Shown piece after piece: positions 530 to 33,522 of a stretch of 33,834 nucleotides of DNA. The notes under the pieces are model-generated. The model saw only the letters and a program-made list of their open reading frames with translations. It did not search any database and was not told the DNA's origin. The position numbers and the translations under genes were made by a program. The DNA is taken from NCBI GenBank assembly GCA_903830565.1, contig CAIKUF010000282.1:1-33834 (forward strand), in the 5' to 3' direction. The DNA is from an uncultured bacterium. Its GTDB lineage: Bacteria; Pseudomonadota; Gammaproteobacteria; Burkholderiales; Burkholderiaceae_C. How positions within the stretch are numbered: the first letter of the stretch is position 1; every line of letters starts with the position of its first letter.

Positions 530-1051
530 GTGTCGCAAGCGAGGTACCTGTGTGGTTGGTTCTTCGCCATCGCCATCGCCTGCACGCTTGCGCTGGGCGG
601 CTGCAGCGGCTATTCGCCCAAGAAGCTGCAGGCCGGCCAGACCGAGGCCGAGGTCGTGCAGCAGATGGGCCCCCCGACCGCGCGCTACGCGCTGCCGGGC
701 GGGGGCAAGCGCCTCGAATACGCCCGCGGCCCGGCCGGGCGCGAGACCTACATGGTCGACTTCGATGCCGGCGGCCGCATGACGACCTGGGACCAGGTCC
801 TGAACCTGCCCAACCTGTACGCGATCTCGCCCGGCATGACGCAAGACGAAGTGCTCTTGCGCGTCGGCCATCCGGGAACGACGTTCCCGATCAAGCGCCA
901 GCAACTCGTGCTCTGGAACTACCGCTACCCGACCAACGACTGCCTGTGGTTCCAGATCTCGATGGGCGACGACGGCAAGGTGATCACCGCCTCGCAGGGC
1001 ACCGACCCGCAGTGCGACGCGCCCAGCGACGCCCGTAGCGACGGCCGCTGA
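530..1051 (+). CDS. Outer-membrane lipoprotein with two BamE (SmpA/OmlA)-like repeats
   Basis: The GTG start at 530 is chosen because GAGG lies a few bases upstream and because it gives a clean lipoprotein signal: hydrophobic residues 9-23, then lipobox LGGC with acylated Cys25. The frame stays open upstream to 461 but would bury the signal peptide. The mature part (about 148 residues) holds two repeats of the pattern x-G-x-T-x-x-E-V-x-x-x-x-G-x-P. The first begins near LQAGQTEAEVVQQMGPP and the second near ISPGMTQDEVLLRVGHP. This is the hallmark of the SmpA/OmlA fold found in BamE, a part of the outer-membrane protein assembly machine. The real bamE usually has one such domain, so this is better read as a BamE-like paralogue than as BamE itself. 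Confidence 0.75.
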   Translation: MSQARYLCGWFFAIAIACTLALGGCSGYSPKKLQAGQTEAEVVQQMGPPTARYALPGGGKRLEYARGPAGRETYMVDFDAGGRMTTWDQVLNLPNLYAISPGMTQDEVLLRVGHPGTTFPIKRQQLVLWNYRYPTNDCLWFQISMGDDGKVITASQGTDPQCDAPSDARSDGR

Positions 1052-1072
1052 GCGCCGGGCCGCCTCGGCGCC

Positions 1073-3808
<2,736 letters not shown>

Positions 3809-12687: not shown

Positions 12688-12789
12688 CTGCCAATCCTGT
12701 TCGCGGCCCGGTTCGGGCGGTTCTACACAGCGATCGTGATCTCGCGGTTCGTGGGCCTGGCGCAGGAAACGGTGCGTGACGGTGCTTAG
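12688..12789 (+). pseudogene. Probable remnant of a two-helix ion-channel gene
   Basis: The frame ending at TAG 12787-12789 reads TLPILFAARFGRFYTAIVIS followed by RFVGLAQETV. This resembles the second transmembrane helix of bacterial K+ channel-like proteins, where a GQxYxAxxxARLVGL pattern is common. The pore and first helix cannot be found upstream, where the frame is unconvincing and interrupted, so at most the C-terminal tail survives. The stop codon overlaps the left end of the palindromic element at 12788. This is family resemblance judged by eye. Confidence 0.35.
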
Positions 12790-12948
12790 TGCCTACTTGC
12801 ATGAGCCTGCGTCGGCACTGATCGGCGCTTGGGGCGCCGAGCGCAGGCGCGAACCGCAGCCATGGCTAGGCTATGGCGAGCGTTCGCGACGCCGCGATCG
12901 GCGATGCCAAGCGCGCCGAATGCAGCAAGACTTATGCAAGTAGGCACT
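12788..12948. repeat. Palindromic element, copy 1 (161 bp)
   Basis: Perfect 15-bp terminal inverted repeats (agtgcctacttgcat and its complement) bound a sequence that folds on itself over nearly its whole length. The core at about 12843-12894 is shared with two other copies in the window (32534-32585 in reverse, 33595-33646). It has no coding capacity of its own and no obvious target duplication. It supplies the sequence just upstream of the MscS-type channel gene and contaminates any start codon placed between 12829 and 12948. Confidence 0.8.
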
Positions 12949-29999: not shown

Positions 30000-32480
30000 A
30001 TGCCCAAGCGCCTGCTGAGCGACTACGCCGTCCCCGCCGACCGCTACGACGAGATGCTGGCCGCGCCGGGCGAGCCGCGGCCGCACTGGGAGGCGTTCGT
30101 GCGGGCGCTCGCGGCGCGCCAGGGTAGGGAGGTCGGCGACACGCTTGCGCTGATGGAGCGCGAGATTCGCGAAAGCGGCATCACCTACAACGTGTATGCC
30201 GATCCCAAGGGCGCCGACCGGCCGTGGCAGGTCGACCCGCTGCCGCTGCTGATCTCGGCCGACGAGTGGGCGCACATCGAGGCCGGCATCGCCCAGCGCG
30301 CCGAACTGCTCAACCGCGTGCTGGCTGATGTCTACGGGCCGCAGGATCTGCTCGCCAGCGGCGCGGTGCCGCCCTCCGTGGTGTTCGGGCACAGCGGCTT
30401 CCTGCACCAGGTGCAGGGCATACGCCCGCCGGGCGGCGTGCACCTGTTCCATTACGCGGCCGACCTCGCGCGCTCGCCCGACGGCCACTGGTGGGTCGTC
30501 AACGACCGCACGCAGGCGCCCTCGGGCGCGGGCTATGCGCTGGAGAACCGGCTCGTCGTCGCCCGCGTCTTCCCGCAGATGTTCAGCGACCTGCGCGTGC
30601 AGCACCTGGCGTCGTTCTTCGACACCTTGCGCGATTCGCTGCGCCAATGGGCGCCCCGGGGCGACGGCCCGCCGCTGGTCGCGCTGCTCACGCCCGGGCC
30701 ATACAACGAGACCTATTTCGAGCACACGCTGCTCGCGCGCTACCTCGGCTTCACGCTCGTCGAGGGCAGCGACCTCACGGTGCAGGGCGGCAAGCTGTGG
30801 ATGAAGACCGTCGAGGGCTTGCAGCGCGTGCACGCGCTGCTGCGCCGCCAGGACGACGACTATTGCGACCCGCTGGAGTTGCGCTCGGACTCTGCGCTCG
30901 GCGTCGCCGGCCTTACCGATTGCGCGCGCCGCGGCGCGGTGATGCTGGCCAATGCGCTCGGCGCTGGCGTGCTTGAGTCCGGCGCGCTGCTCGGCTACCT
31001 GCCGCGCCTGGCCGAGCGCCTGCTCGGCGAGCCGCTTCGCATGCCGTCGATCGCCACCTGGTGGCTGGGCGAACCGGCCGCGTTCGAGGATGCCTGGGAG
31101 CACCTGGGCCACCTCATCATCAAGCCGCTCGACCGTGCCTCGGGCGAAGAGGCGGTGTTCGGCGTCGACCTCTCGGCCGCCGAGCGCGACGCGCTGCACG
31201 CACGCGTTGCCGCGCAACCTCAGCGTTATGTCGCGCAGGAGTGGGTGCGCGTCTCGCAGGCACCGGTGCTCGATCGCGAGCGTGGTGATCGCCCCGGCAC
31301 TCTGCGCGACCGCCTGAGCGCGCGAACGGTCGGCCTGCGCGTGTTCGCGGTGGCGACGCCCACCGGCTATCGCGTGATGCCGGGCGGGCTGACTCGGGTC
31401 GCCGGCGACGGCGACGCGCGCGTGATCGCGATGCAGCGCGGCGGGCGCTCGAAAGACACCTGGGTGCTCTCCGACAGGCCGGTGAACGCGTCGTTCTCGC
31501 TGTTGTCGACCATGGTCACGCCGCAGGACCTGGTGACGACGCGCACCAACGTCTCGTCGCGCGCGGCCGAGAACCTGTTCTGGTTCGGCCGCTACGGCGA
31601 GCGTTGCGACGCCACCGCCCGCGTGCTGCGCGTCGCCATCGCCAGCGTGCTCGGCGACGCGGCGCGCTCGGGCGACGGCGTGGCGCCCGCGCTGGTGCTG
31701 GCTGCGCGGCTGGGCTTGCTGGAGACGCCGCAAAGCCCGGCCACCGACCTGTTGCGCGCCGCGACCCACCCCGACGAAGGCCTGGGCGAGCAGTTGCGTC
31801 GCCTGTCGCGGGTGGCCTTCAACCTGCGCGACCGCATGTCCAGCGACAACTGGCGCACGCTCAACCAGCTCATCGGCGACCCGATCTTTCGGCGCGGCCT
31901 CGCGTCTTCGCTGCAACTGCCGCTGGCGCTAGCCTGGCTGGATCGCGCGGTGACGTCGATGATGACGCTGTCGGGCTTCGTACTCGACGGCATGACGCGC
32001 GGCACCGGCTGGCGCTTCCTCTCGATCGGCCGGCGCATCGAGCGCCTGACACAGCTTTGTGCGGCGCTCGATGTGGCCACTGGCGAAGGCCGCGCGAGCG
32101 GGCTCGACTGGCTGCTCGAGTTGGCCGATTCGAGCATGAGCTACCGCTCGCGCTACCCGGTGGCGCCCGAGTGGCTGCCGGTGCTGGACCTGCTCGTGCG
32201 CGACGCCACGAATCCGCGCTCGGTGGCGTTCCAGATGAAAGGCCTGGTCGAATACGTCGACAAGCTCGAACGCGTTCATGGCCGTTTCGCGAGCGACGTG
32301 CTGGCGCCTGGGATGTCGGCCTTGAACGAACTCGCCGCTGCCGACCTGCACCCGGAGAGCGCCGCGCTGGCGGCGCTGCTCGAACAGCTCGGGCGCACGG
32401 CGCGCGGCGTGTCGGACGAGCTGACACTCAAGTTCTTCTCCCACGCCGCATCGCGCAGTGTGCTGTCGTTGGTGGCCTGA
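30000..32480 (+). CDS. Fusion of circularly permuted ATP-grasp and alpha-E domains
   Basis: The 826-residue protein joins in one chain the two activities encoded separately at 24058 and 25529. The ATP-grasp half (about 1-500) repeats the motifs of the first copy: NDRTQAPSGAGYALENR (about 167), TPGPYNETYFEHTLLARYLG, LIIKPLDRASGEEAVFG (about 372) and [11 protein letters not shown] then GGRSKDTWVLSD. The alpha-E half starts near 515 with SRAAENLFWFGRYGERCDAT and repeats as IGRRIERLTQL. Sequence is clearly diverged from the stand-alone pair, so this is an old paralogue rather than a recent duplication. The start is supported by GGAG seven bases upstream. Its stop codon shares its last base with the left edge of the 161-bp palindromic element. 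Confidence 0.92.
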   Translation: MPKRLLSDYAVPADRYDEMLAAPGEPRPHWEAFVRALAARQGREVGDTLALMEREIRESGITYNVYADPKGADRPWQVDPLPLLISADEWAHIEAGIAQRAELLNRVLADVYGPQDLLASGAVPPSVVFGHSGFLHQVQGIRPPGGVHLFHYAADLARSPDGHWWVVNDRTQAPSGAGYALENRLVVARVFPQMFSDLRVQHLASFFDTLRDSLRQWAPRGDGPPLVALLTPGPYNETYFEHTLLARYLGFTLVEGSDLTVQGGKLWMKTVEGLQRVHALLRRQDDDYCDPLELRSDSALGVAGLTDCARRGAVMLANALGAGVLESGALLGYLPRLAERLLGEPLRMPSIATWWLGEPAAFEDAWEHLGHLIIKPLDRASGEEAVFGVDLSAAERDALHARVAAQPQRYVAQEWVRVSQAPVLDRERGDRPGTLRDRLSARTVGLRVFAVATPTGYRVMPGGLTRVAGDGDARVIAMQRGGRSKDTWVLSDRPVNASFSLLSTMVTPQDLVTTRTNVSSRAAENLFWFGRYGERCDATARVLRVAIASVLGDAARSGDGVAPALVLAARLGLLETPQSPATDLLRAATHPDEGLGEQLRRLSRVAFNLRDRMSSDNWRTLNQLIGDPIFRRGLASSLQLPLALAWLDRAVTSMMTLSGFVLDGMTRGTGWRFLSIGRRIERLTQLCAALDVATGEGRASGLDWLLELADSSMSYRSRYPVAPEWLPVLDLLVRDATNPRSVAFQMKGLVEYVDKLERVHGRFASDVLAPGMSALNELAAADLHPESAALAALLEQLGRTARGVSDELTLKFFSHAASRSVLSLVA

Positions 32481-32640
32481 GAGGCTGAGAGTTCTTCGAT
32501 CATGCCCGCTCATCACGCCATATGGCGCACGCTCGTCGTTGCAAATGCTCGCCATAGCCCGAGCTATGACTGTGCTTTGCGCCTAGATCGGCCGCCTTCT
32601 GGCGCGCTGCTCGCGCACGCCCGAAGAACTTGCAGCCTCT
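32480..32640. repeat. Palindromic element, copy 2 (161 bp)
   Basis: Ends pair at 17 of 19 positions (agaggctgagagttcttcg at 32480-32498 against 32622-32640). The core (32534-32585, reverse orientation relative to copies 1 and 3) contains catagctcgggctatgg on the minus strand. It fills the whole space between the ATP-grasp/alpha-E stop codon and the GTG of the next transglutaminase, whose ribosome-binding site it may have displaced. TGA flanks the inner boundaries on both sides (32478-32480 and 32639-32641), a possible but weak 3-bp target duplication. Confidence 0.8.
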
Positions 32641-32643
32641 GAC

Positions 32644-33522
32644 GTGACGAACGCACGCTACCGCGTCGAGCACGAGACGCTCTACACCTACGCGTCTCCG
32701 GTTGCGCGCTCGTGGCAGCTCGCGCGCCTGACGCCGCGCAGCCTGCCGTGGCAGCGCTTGCTCAGCCATTCGCTGCAGATCGACCCGCGGCCCGACGAGT
32801 TCGAGGACGCGATCGACAGCTTCGGCAACACGGTGACCCACTTTGCGCTGCATGGTGCGCACCGCCGATTGCAGGTGCGCATGCACTGCACGGTCGACGT
32901 CGCCGCGCGGCCTGCGCTGCCGGATGCCGATCTGCCTTGGGAATCCGTGCGCGACGCGCAGCGCGATTCCGAGCCGCCACTGGACCTCGCTGCGGCGAGG
33001 ATGACCGAGCCGACACCGCTCGTGCCCTTGTCCGAGCAGGCACTAGCCTATGCCGCCCCGCACTTCACGGCCGCAAGAGGCTGGCTGGAAGCCGTCCGGT
33101 CCTTGATGAAGGCCATCCACGCCGACTTCAGCTTCGACCCCGAGGCGACGACCGTCACCACCTCGGTCGACGAAGTGCTGGCGCAACGGCGCGGCGTGTG
33201 CCAGGACTTCGCTCACCTGATGCTCGCCTGCCTGCGCGCGCACGGCCTTCCAGCGCGCTACGTGTCAGGCTACCTGCTGACCGACCACCGGCCGGGGCGG
33301 GCACGCCTGATGGGCGTCGACGCCACCCACGCCTGGGTGGCCGCCTACTCGCCTGAATGCGGCTGGGTGGAGTTCGACCCCACCAACGATCAGCTTGCCG
33401 ACACGCGCTACATCACGCTCGCCTGGGGCTGCGACTTCGCCGATGTGGTGCCGCTGCGCGGCGTGATCCTGGGTGGCGACGAGCAGACGCTGGATGTACG
33501 GGTGAGCGTGATCCCCGGTTGA
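32644..33522 (+). CDS. Transglutaminase-family protein with N-terminal beta domain
   Basis: The 292-residue protein has the bacterial transglutaminase N-terminal region (about 1-90, opening YRVEHETLYTYASPVARSWQ). A papain-fold core with full triad follows: C186 (RGVCQDFAH), H229 (DATHAW) and D245 (WVEFDPTN). It ends in a short beta tail (GVILGGDEQTLDVRVSVIPG). It is the compact counterpart of the giant at 26558 and the usual last gene of the ATP-grasp/alpha-E set. The GTG at 32644 has no shine-dalgarno sequence because element copy 2 ends four bases before it; expression may depend on sequence within that element. No signal peptide: cytoplasmic. Confidence 0.93.
   Translation: MTNARYRVEHETLYTYASPVARSWQLARLTPRSLPWQRLLSHSLQIDPRPDEFEDAIDSFGNTVTHFALHGAHRRLQVRMHCTVDVAARPALPDADLPWESVRDAQRDSEPPLDLAAARMTEPTPLVPLSEQALAYAAPHFTAARGWLEAVRSLMKAIHADFSFDPEATTVTTSVDEVLAQRRGVCQDFAHLMLACLRAHGLPARYVSGYLLTDHRPGRARLMGVDATHAWVAAYSPECGWVEFDPTNDQLADTRYITLAWGCDFADVVPLRGVILGGDEQTLDVRVSVIPG

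Follow-up and report, generated by a model that had tools for sequence, protein, structure and literature searches.

The 159-bp palindrome between an ATP-grasp/alpha-E gene and a transglutaminase-like gene is, with high confidence, a non-autonomous DNA transposon (MITE) that was inserted into the TGA stop codon of the upstream gene and duplicated this TGA. The element, named F1 here, was found in the window (the whole stretch of DNA that was analysed, 33,834 nt). It is short and non-coding, carries terminal inverted repeats (GAGGCTGAGAG), is bordered by a target duplication and occurs in dispersed copies with orthologous empty sites. A sequence-only reading of the window had noted that a repeated palindrome fills the gap between two clustered genes. 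This observation stands, with the ends of the element moved inwards past the last stop base and the bases up to the GTG, so that the stop codon is followed by the element, by TGAC and by the GTG (Table 1). This GTG is the first ATG, GTG or TTG in the open frame of the transglutaminase gene.

Table 1. Coordinates of F1, its neighbouring genes and the related palindromes in the window
Feature	Position	Strand	Remarks
Third palindromic element, F8, ends AGTGCCTACTTGCAT	12788..12948	-	Related core, other ends
Circularly permuted ATP-grasp + Alpha-E gene	30000..32480	+	Pfam CP_ATPgrasp_2, Alpha-E; upstream; stop TGA is the insertion site
Left copy of 3-bp target duplication TGA	32478..32480	+	Stop codon of the upstream gene
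Palindromic MITE F1, 159 bp	32481..32639	+	13 further copies in own genome, and copies in other genomes
F1 left terminal inverted repeat GAGGCTGAGAGTTCTTCG	32481..32498	+	
46-nt core hairpin GTTGCAAA...TTTGCGCC	32538..32583	+	Common to other element types
F1 right terminal inverted repeat CGAAGAACTTGCAGCCTC	32622..32639	+	Complementary to left repeat at 16/18
Right target-duplication copy TGA	32640..32642	+	
Transglutaminase-like gene	32644..33522	+	Downstream; single base C 32643 separates right TGA from GTG
Second palindromic element, F2, ends GCAACGCTGAA	33541..33699	-	Same core, other ends

BLAST searches of the genome to which the window belongs (own genome; a 4.13-Mb draft of 339 contigs) detected 14 full-length F1 copies including the window copy. 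Identity is 85-93% for the other 13, one of which is truncated at a contig end. Together with two palindromes of the window that share the core, these copies verified that the palindrome is repeated. F1 was matched at E 1e-20 in 8 of 60 genomes, the own genome included, and a pattern scan of named genomes yielded at least 117 F1 stretches, which among the 80 listed came mostly from Burkholderiales. The genera among the matches listed were Rhizobacter, Acidovorax, Massilia, Pseudoduganella, Ideonella, Xenophilus and Tibeticola, along with a few metagenome-assembled genomes (MAGs) that are titled otherwise or only vaguely, among them one titled Chloroflexi. The F1 arm was counted 641 times in a Rhizobacter MAG (an estimated 300 copies or so), 152 times in Massilia glaciei (146 with the TNA included) and 82 times, at 51 places, in genome G029. 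No F1 match was obtained among 50,697 phage records, and only the core part was matched in plasmids (6 records). Two loci, L227 (G061:C228) and G029:C6 near 140541, contain three F1 copies in a row with only the TGA duplicate between them, as well as 8-bp tandem runs of the end repeat.

Identical 3-bp flanks were found for 37 of 41 Tibeticola copies, 35 of 41 Massilia copies and 26 of 40 Rhizobacter copies. Against the assignment as a MITE, the own genome keeps identical flanks in only 6 of 13 copies. The flanks were mostly TGA/TGA (34 of 57 copies), with TCA/TCA in four and TTA/TTA in two. Five Tibeticola copies of 42-68 bp that lack the core are still flanked by TGA/TGA or TCA/TCA. Given the TCA/TCA and TTA/TTA flanks, the TGA is no fixed end of the element but one form of a duplicated TNA target. 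The proposed comparison with an orthologous cluster that lacks the element could be made in the relative G003, where the corresponding junction is empty (GTCGCCTGAGCC) and the cluster reads CCTGAGCC, with an ATG 12 nt past the stop. The second comparison involves rplN, which in the own genome carries an F1 copy (L012), ends in TAA and has TGA at the far end of the element. In all three relatives with a match (G001, G003 and G004; G002 was unmatched) the element is absent and rplN ends in CTCTGAG. As the relatives use TGA, the TAA stop of the own gene must have arisen after the insertion. These two orthologous empty sites support an insertion at a CTGA stop.

A TAA stop with a far duplicate TGA was observed at L011, L012, L020, L034, L048, L141 and L240. 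Such copies had prompted the consideration of a fixed right-end TGA without true duplication, as in IS200/IS605-like elements. This candidate was ruled out by the TCA/TCA and TTA/TTA flanks and by the rplN genes of the three relatives, which end in TGA and place the TAA later than the insertion.

IS5-type insertion sequences use TNA or YTAR as target and match F1 (TNA) and F2 (YTAR) in the type of target. No IS5-type element with these end repeats was detected in the searched genomes, in which DDE_Tnp_1 and DDE_Tnp_1_2 loci were checked. Likewise, no autonomous element with F1 ends was present in the fetched loci or in 41 transposase loci, which covered 30 of 36 DDE_Tnp_1 and all 11 DDE_Tnp_1_2 matches (several at the same places) in five of six searched genomes. 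In genome G008, the same check did reveal a multi-copy DDE element by its ends, which have CTAG/CTAA-type flanks. Four pairs of distant F1 arms were evaluated as autonomous elements and rejected. One pair, 1.8 kb apart in L107 (Rhizobacter MAG), shows unequal flanks (TGA and TCA), with part of an IS21-type helper gene (IstB; 882-1394, minus strand) lying between its arms. The arms of L122 have nearer partners, those of L221 enclose TctC and HIT genes, and those of L222 (flanks TCA/TCA) enclose a sigma-54 regulator and a hemerythrin-domain gene; all four pairs were read as separate copies.

As another possibility, F1 could be an element of the REP kind, mobilised in the form of single-stranded DNA by a Y1 (RAYT) transposase. 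F1 resembles REP/GTAG palindromes in being palindromic and close to the 3' ends of genes, and the portion of PMC3733652 considered here describes REP termini that can supply a stop codon. The orientation of F1 relative to TGA, which is invariant in Massilia and almost invariant in Tibeticola, would also fit. However, F1 has a length of 159 bp in contrast to the 20-40 bp given there for REPs, and it shows 3-bp target duplications, whereas a REP element is recognised by a Y1 partner and the lack of a target duplication. No Y1 match was obtained in G029, which carries about 50 copies, and ten Y1 loci from the five remaining genomes contain neither arm nor core. A REP origin is therefore considered extremely unlikely.

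The placement at stop codons was compared with chance. In the own genome, nine of the 13 copies with a left flank are located exactly at the stop end of an open frame and one more with a 2-nt shift, while the stop is 8, 10 and 70 bases off in the remaining three. In seven other genomes, 25 loci were read, of which 23 have a left flank; placement was exact in 21 of these, the exceptions being L041 (an F7 element immediately after TAA) and L045 (TGG). The expectation was derived from the background of other non-coding sites, with genes called by an in-house script. Copies at plain TGA sites coincided with stops significantly more often than expected in all four sets: Tibeticola 27/36 (21% expected), Massilia 15/33 (8%), Rhizobacter 7/24 (10%) and own genome 5/5 (26%). 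CTGA sites showed a stop excess as well (p from 3e-8 to 0.03). For CTGAG sites, the excess was significant in Tibeticola (21/28 vs 39% expected, p 1e-4); it was not in the own genome (3/3, 58% expected), nor in Massilia (9/23, 37%) and Rhizobacter (2/11, 18%), where the backgrounds are small (35 and 143 sites). These background counts weakened a clean targeting of stop codons to an uneven excess.

No copy fell within a called gene, but such calls are blind to a gene that was broken by an insertion. For this question, a count was made of copies in which a coding frame on one strand runs open into the element from left and right alike. There were two among 134 copies (L233 and L245, both Massilia, phase unchecked) and none among 41 Tibeticola, 39 Rhizobacter and 13 own copies. 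Gene-breaking insertions are rare among surviving copies. In our reading, the target CTGA(G) and the avoidance of genes account for much of the stop placement, and an uneven excess remains. Motif and gene avoidance may not be the whole explanation, given the excess at plain TGA sites in all four sets and the further CTGAG excess in Tibeticola. One could imagine that the mobility machinery senses stop codons as such, for example through the termination of transcription or translation, beyond the TGA itself. The Tibeticola CTGAG excess and the excess at plain TGA and CTGA sites would agree with this idea. The lack of a CTGAG excess in Massilia and Rhizobacter, given their small backgrounds, and the many copies at TGA or TCA sites that are no stop argue against it, and we regard it as highly unlikely. 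Relative to the TGA strand, the orientation of F1 is fixed in all 31 orientable TGA copies of Massilia and in 30 of 31 of Tibeticola, and it is kept at non-stop sites (17/17 and 8/8, respectively). Rhizobacter copies are mixed at non-stop sites (8 to 7), and its seven stop copies are all in plus orientation.

A host-kept regulatory hairpin that sets downstream expression, be it as a terminator, an RNase III site or a stability hairpin behind the stop, was weighed against insertion. The RNA fold of the F1 palindrome was better than that of 200/200 dinucleotide shuffles on both strands (z -4.0 for plus, z -6.8 for minus). The exact stop placement and its excess over the background would be expected of such a hairpin. 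So would the gene context of 157 F1 copies, with 82 in plus and 10 in minus orientation between tandem genes (39 others are convergent, 8 divergent and 18 at edges), and the paired changes at 14 of the 40 pairs in the plus-strand consensus of 41 non-redundant copies (of 133 distinct). Rare changes in Tibeticola, with 9 A.C to 1 G.U, point in the same direction, but those that arose after insertion are even in the own genome and in Massilia (8:8 each). Furthermore, relatives lack the element at both loci compared, and insertion by itself explains position and duplication. The element end has no T-run, and thus no GC hairpin followed by a T-run as in an intrinsic terminator; the sole terminator-like hit within F1 is an inner 6-bp hairpin with TTT. 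Rfam gave no match over the gathering cut-off in the window and a single hit at E 6.5 in a further search. Overall, a regulatory hairpin retained by the host appears unlikely.

For the transposon, the following course of events can be proposed. A DDE-type transposase acting in trans would have used the CTGA(G) site formed by the stop codon of the ATP-grasp/alpha-E gene. The TGA duplication would keep the upstream stop in place and set a second TGA just before the next gene, and the exact fit between the two genes would result from transposition into TGA with TGA duplication. Insertions that interrupt genes would be removed by selection and stop codons would make up a large share of the surviving sites. 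The transglutaminase gene would thereby have lost a tight stop-start coupling and its former GGTGG ribosome-binding site. When the flanks are joined, GGTGG is found 6 nt before the GTG and the stop-to-start gap is 1 nt; with the element in place, no purine run is closer to the GTG than GAAGAA, at 15 nt, which agrees with the sequence-only reading that the expected ribosome-binding site was replaced. RNA polymerase would read through the element and leave the operon mRNA with a long, imperfect hairpin, and a lower, uncoupled translation of the last gene would be expected. A changed expression of the transglutaminase gene is plausible and RNase III cleavage of the hairpin is possible, while F1 itself is most likely a passenger.

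Two further suggestions were that F1 acts by termination or by providing a start site. No ATG, GTG or TTG is present within the element in the frame of the downstream gene. A co-directional gene follows next downstream of 10 of the 13 other own copies, with gaps of -2 to 68 nt. The gene pairs separated by F1 include hscA|fdx, iscA|hscB and rplN|rplX (named over curated cut-offs) as well as DUF4845|RNase III and Colicin_V|glutamine amidotransferase (by Pfam domains); below the cut-off, an ATP-synthase subunit-K-like gene and a UrtD/LivG-like|UrtE/LivF-like pair lie beside F1. The downstream genes of the rplN|rplX, iscA|hscB and hscA|fdx operons are important. Copies inside such operons, together with the inner position of the only terminator-like hit, make strong termination unlikely. 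One own copy (L015:2000-2163, contig C211) immediately precedes the RNase III gene, with 6 bases between it and the called start, and its long hairpin could be a substrate of the enzyme encoded just downstream.

F1 is one of seven element types (F1, F2, F3, F4, F5, F7 and F8) that have different ends and one 46-nt core hairpin, the core of F8 being related; the window carries three of them (F8, F1 and F2). F2 has the ends GGCAACGCTGAA and YTAR flanks, F4 has the ends TGCAGTGTTC and the ends of F7 resemble those of F1. The element types may share ancestry and F1 and F7 probably do. Among the 14 full-length own copies, the core stem GCCATAGC/GCTATGGC is unaltered in 13, and the four-base loop (window 32559-32562) is variable, with CCGA, ACGA, GGGG, TGGG, TCAA and others.

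The strand opposite to the reading direction of the core folds better in 204 of 205 sampled copies (F1 156/157, F2 29/29, F3 14/14, F4 3/3, F5 1/1, F7 1/1), and the same was observed for F8. With the core removed, the opposite strand is still better in 157/157 F1, 29/29 F2, 12/14 F3 and all five other copies. This advantage is mainly due to wobble-type arm mismatches that are A.C on the plus strand and hence G.U on the other. In a comparison of the arms that favoured neither strand, the ratio of plus-strand A.C positions to G.U positions was 9:0 in F1, 5:2 in F2, 7:4 in F3, 9:3 in F4, 2:0 in F5 and 5:1 in F7, the last three types being counted from 3, 1 and 1 copies. Their sum is 37:10 (p 1e-4, sign test with positions treated as independent); F1, F2 and F3 together give 21:6 (p 0.006), and F2 and F3 alone 12:6 (p 0.24). 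Other kinds of mismatch outnumber both in F1, F2 and F3 (in F1, 1258 cells vs 689 A.C and 94 G.U). DNA folding parameters favoured the same strand in 41/41 copies, which makes RNA and single-stranded DNA indistinguishable. Rare recent changes, counted at pairs found on both strands and leaving out fixed mismatches at minus-derived pairs, which are biased, were near even in the own and Massilia sets given above, 17:13 in the Rhizobacter set (including 37 untitled loci), 7:4 in F2 (7:7 in Tibeticola alone) and 7:4 in F3.

The strand pattern suggests a selected single-stranded stage (RNA or single-stranded DNA), for which independent support outside F1 is thin. Taken with the near-even recent changes, the pattern hints that one folded strand is under selection in the lineage that propagates. 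It could alternatively stem from selection that keeps the mRNA hairpin weak, as F1 is plus-wise between tandem genes at 82 to 10. F2, with 5 plus-wise to 11 minus-wise between tandem genes, shows the same strand pattern and speaks against this alternative. As a tentative and rather doubtful proposal, the core would be a mobile module in MITEs with varied ends and targets. The palindromes around it would be under selection as a folded single strand (RNA or single-stranded DNA), always of the same sense, while they spread, and would mostly drift once inserted, with the module as the unit on which selection acts and with interchangeable ends. If this were true, the selected strand of F1 would be antisense to most neighbouring operons and the operon mRNA would have the weaker hairpin.

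A TGA-targeting transposon can enter tight operons without breaking the gene that is hit, because the duplication rebuilds the stop. With 82 of 157 F1 copies between co-directional genes and empty sites at the two loci checked, the family offers a natural experiment on translational coupling and long mRNA hairpins. The shared core and one-sided mismatches make a folded single-strand stage or small RNA in such MITEs testable.

Among the literature matches listed, with subscription papers mostly outside the scope, no paper was recognised as describing the F1 family. A lead for the identity of the 46-nt core, compared by description only, is the beta-proteobacterial repeat element BRE. In the part of PMC3110155 drawn on here, BRE is described from Bordetella, Polaromonas, Acidovorax, Delftia and others, with a length of about 90 bp, conserved partial copies of 40-60 bp and tandem repeats; small RNAs arise from a region that contains one of the copies. 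Pneumococcal repeats are the subject of PMC3049150. Prokaryotic MITEs such as Correia/NEMIS, Chunjie and ERIC are covered by the review PMC10969869. In the sections considered, it states that Correia transcripts are cut by RNase III, and the title of a paper cited there places Chunjie inside an operon without disturbing it. Like these elements as portrayed in that review, F1 is short, mostly non-coding and bordered by inverted repeats and a target duplication, with many dispersed copies. Unlike them, going by the same sections, F1 has a duplicated target that is usually TGA, so that the stop codon hit is regenerated, and a core hairpin that is common to types with different ends.
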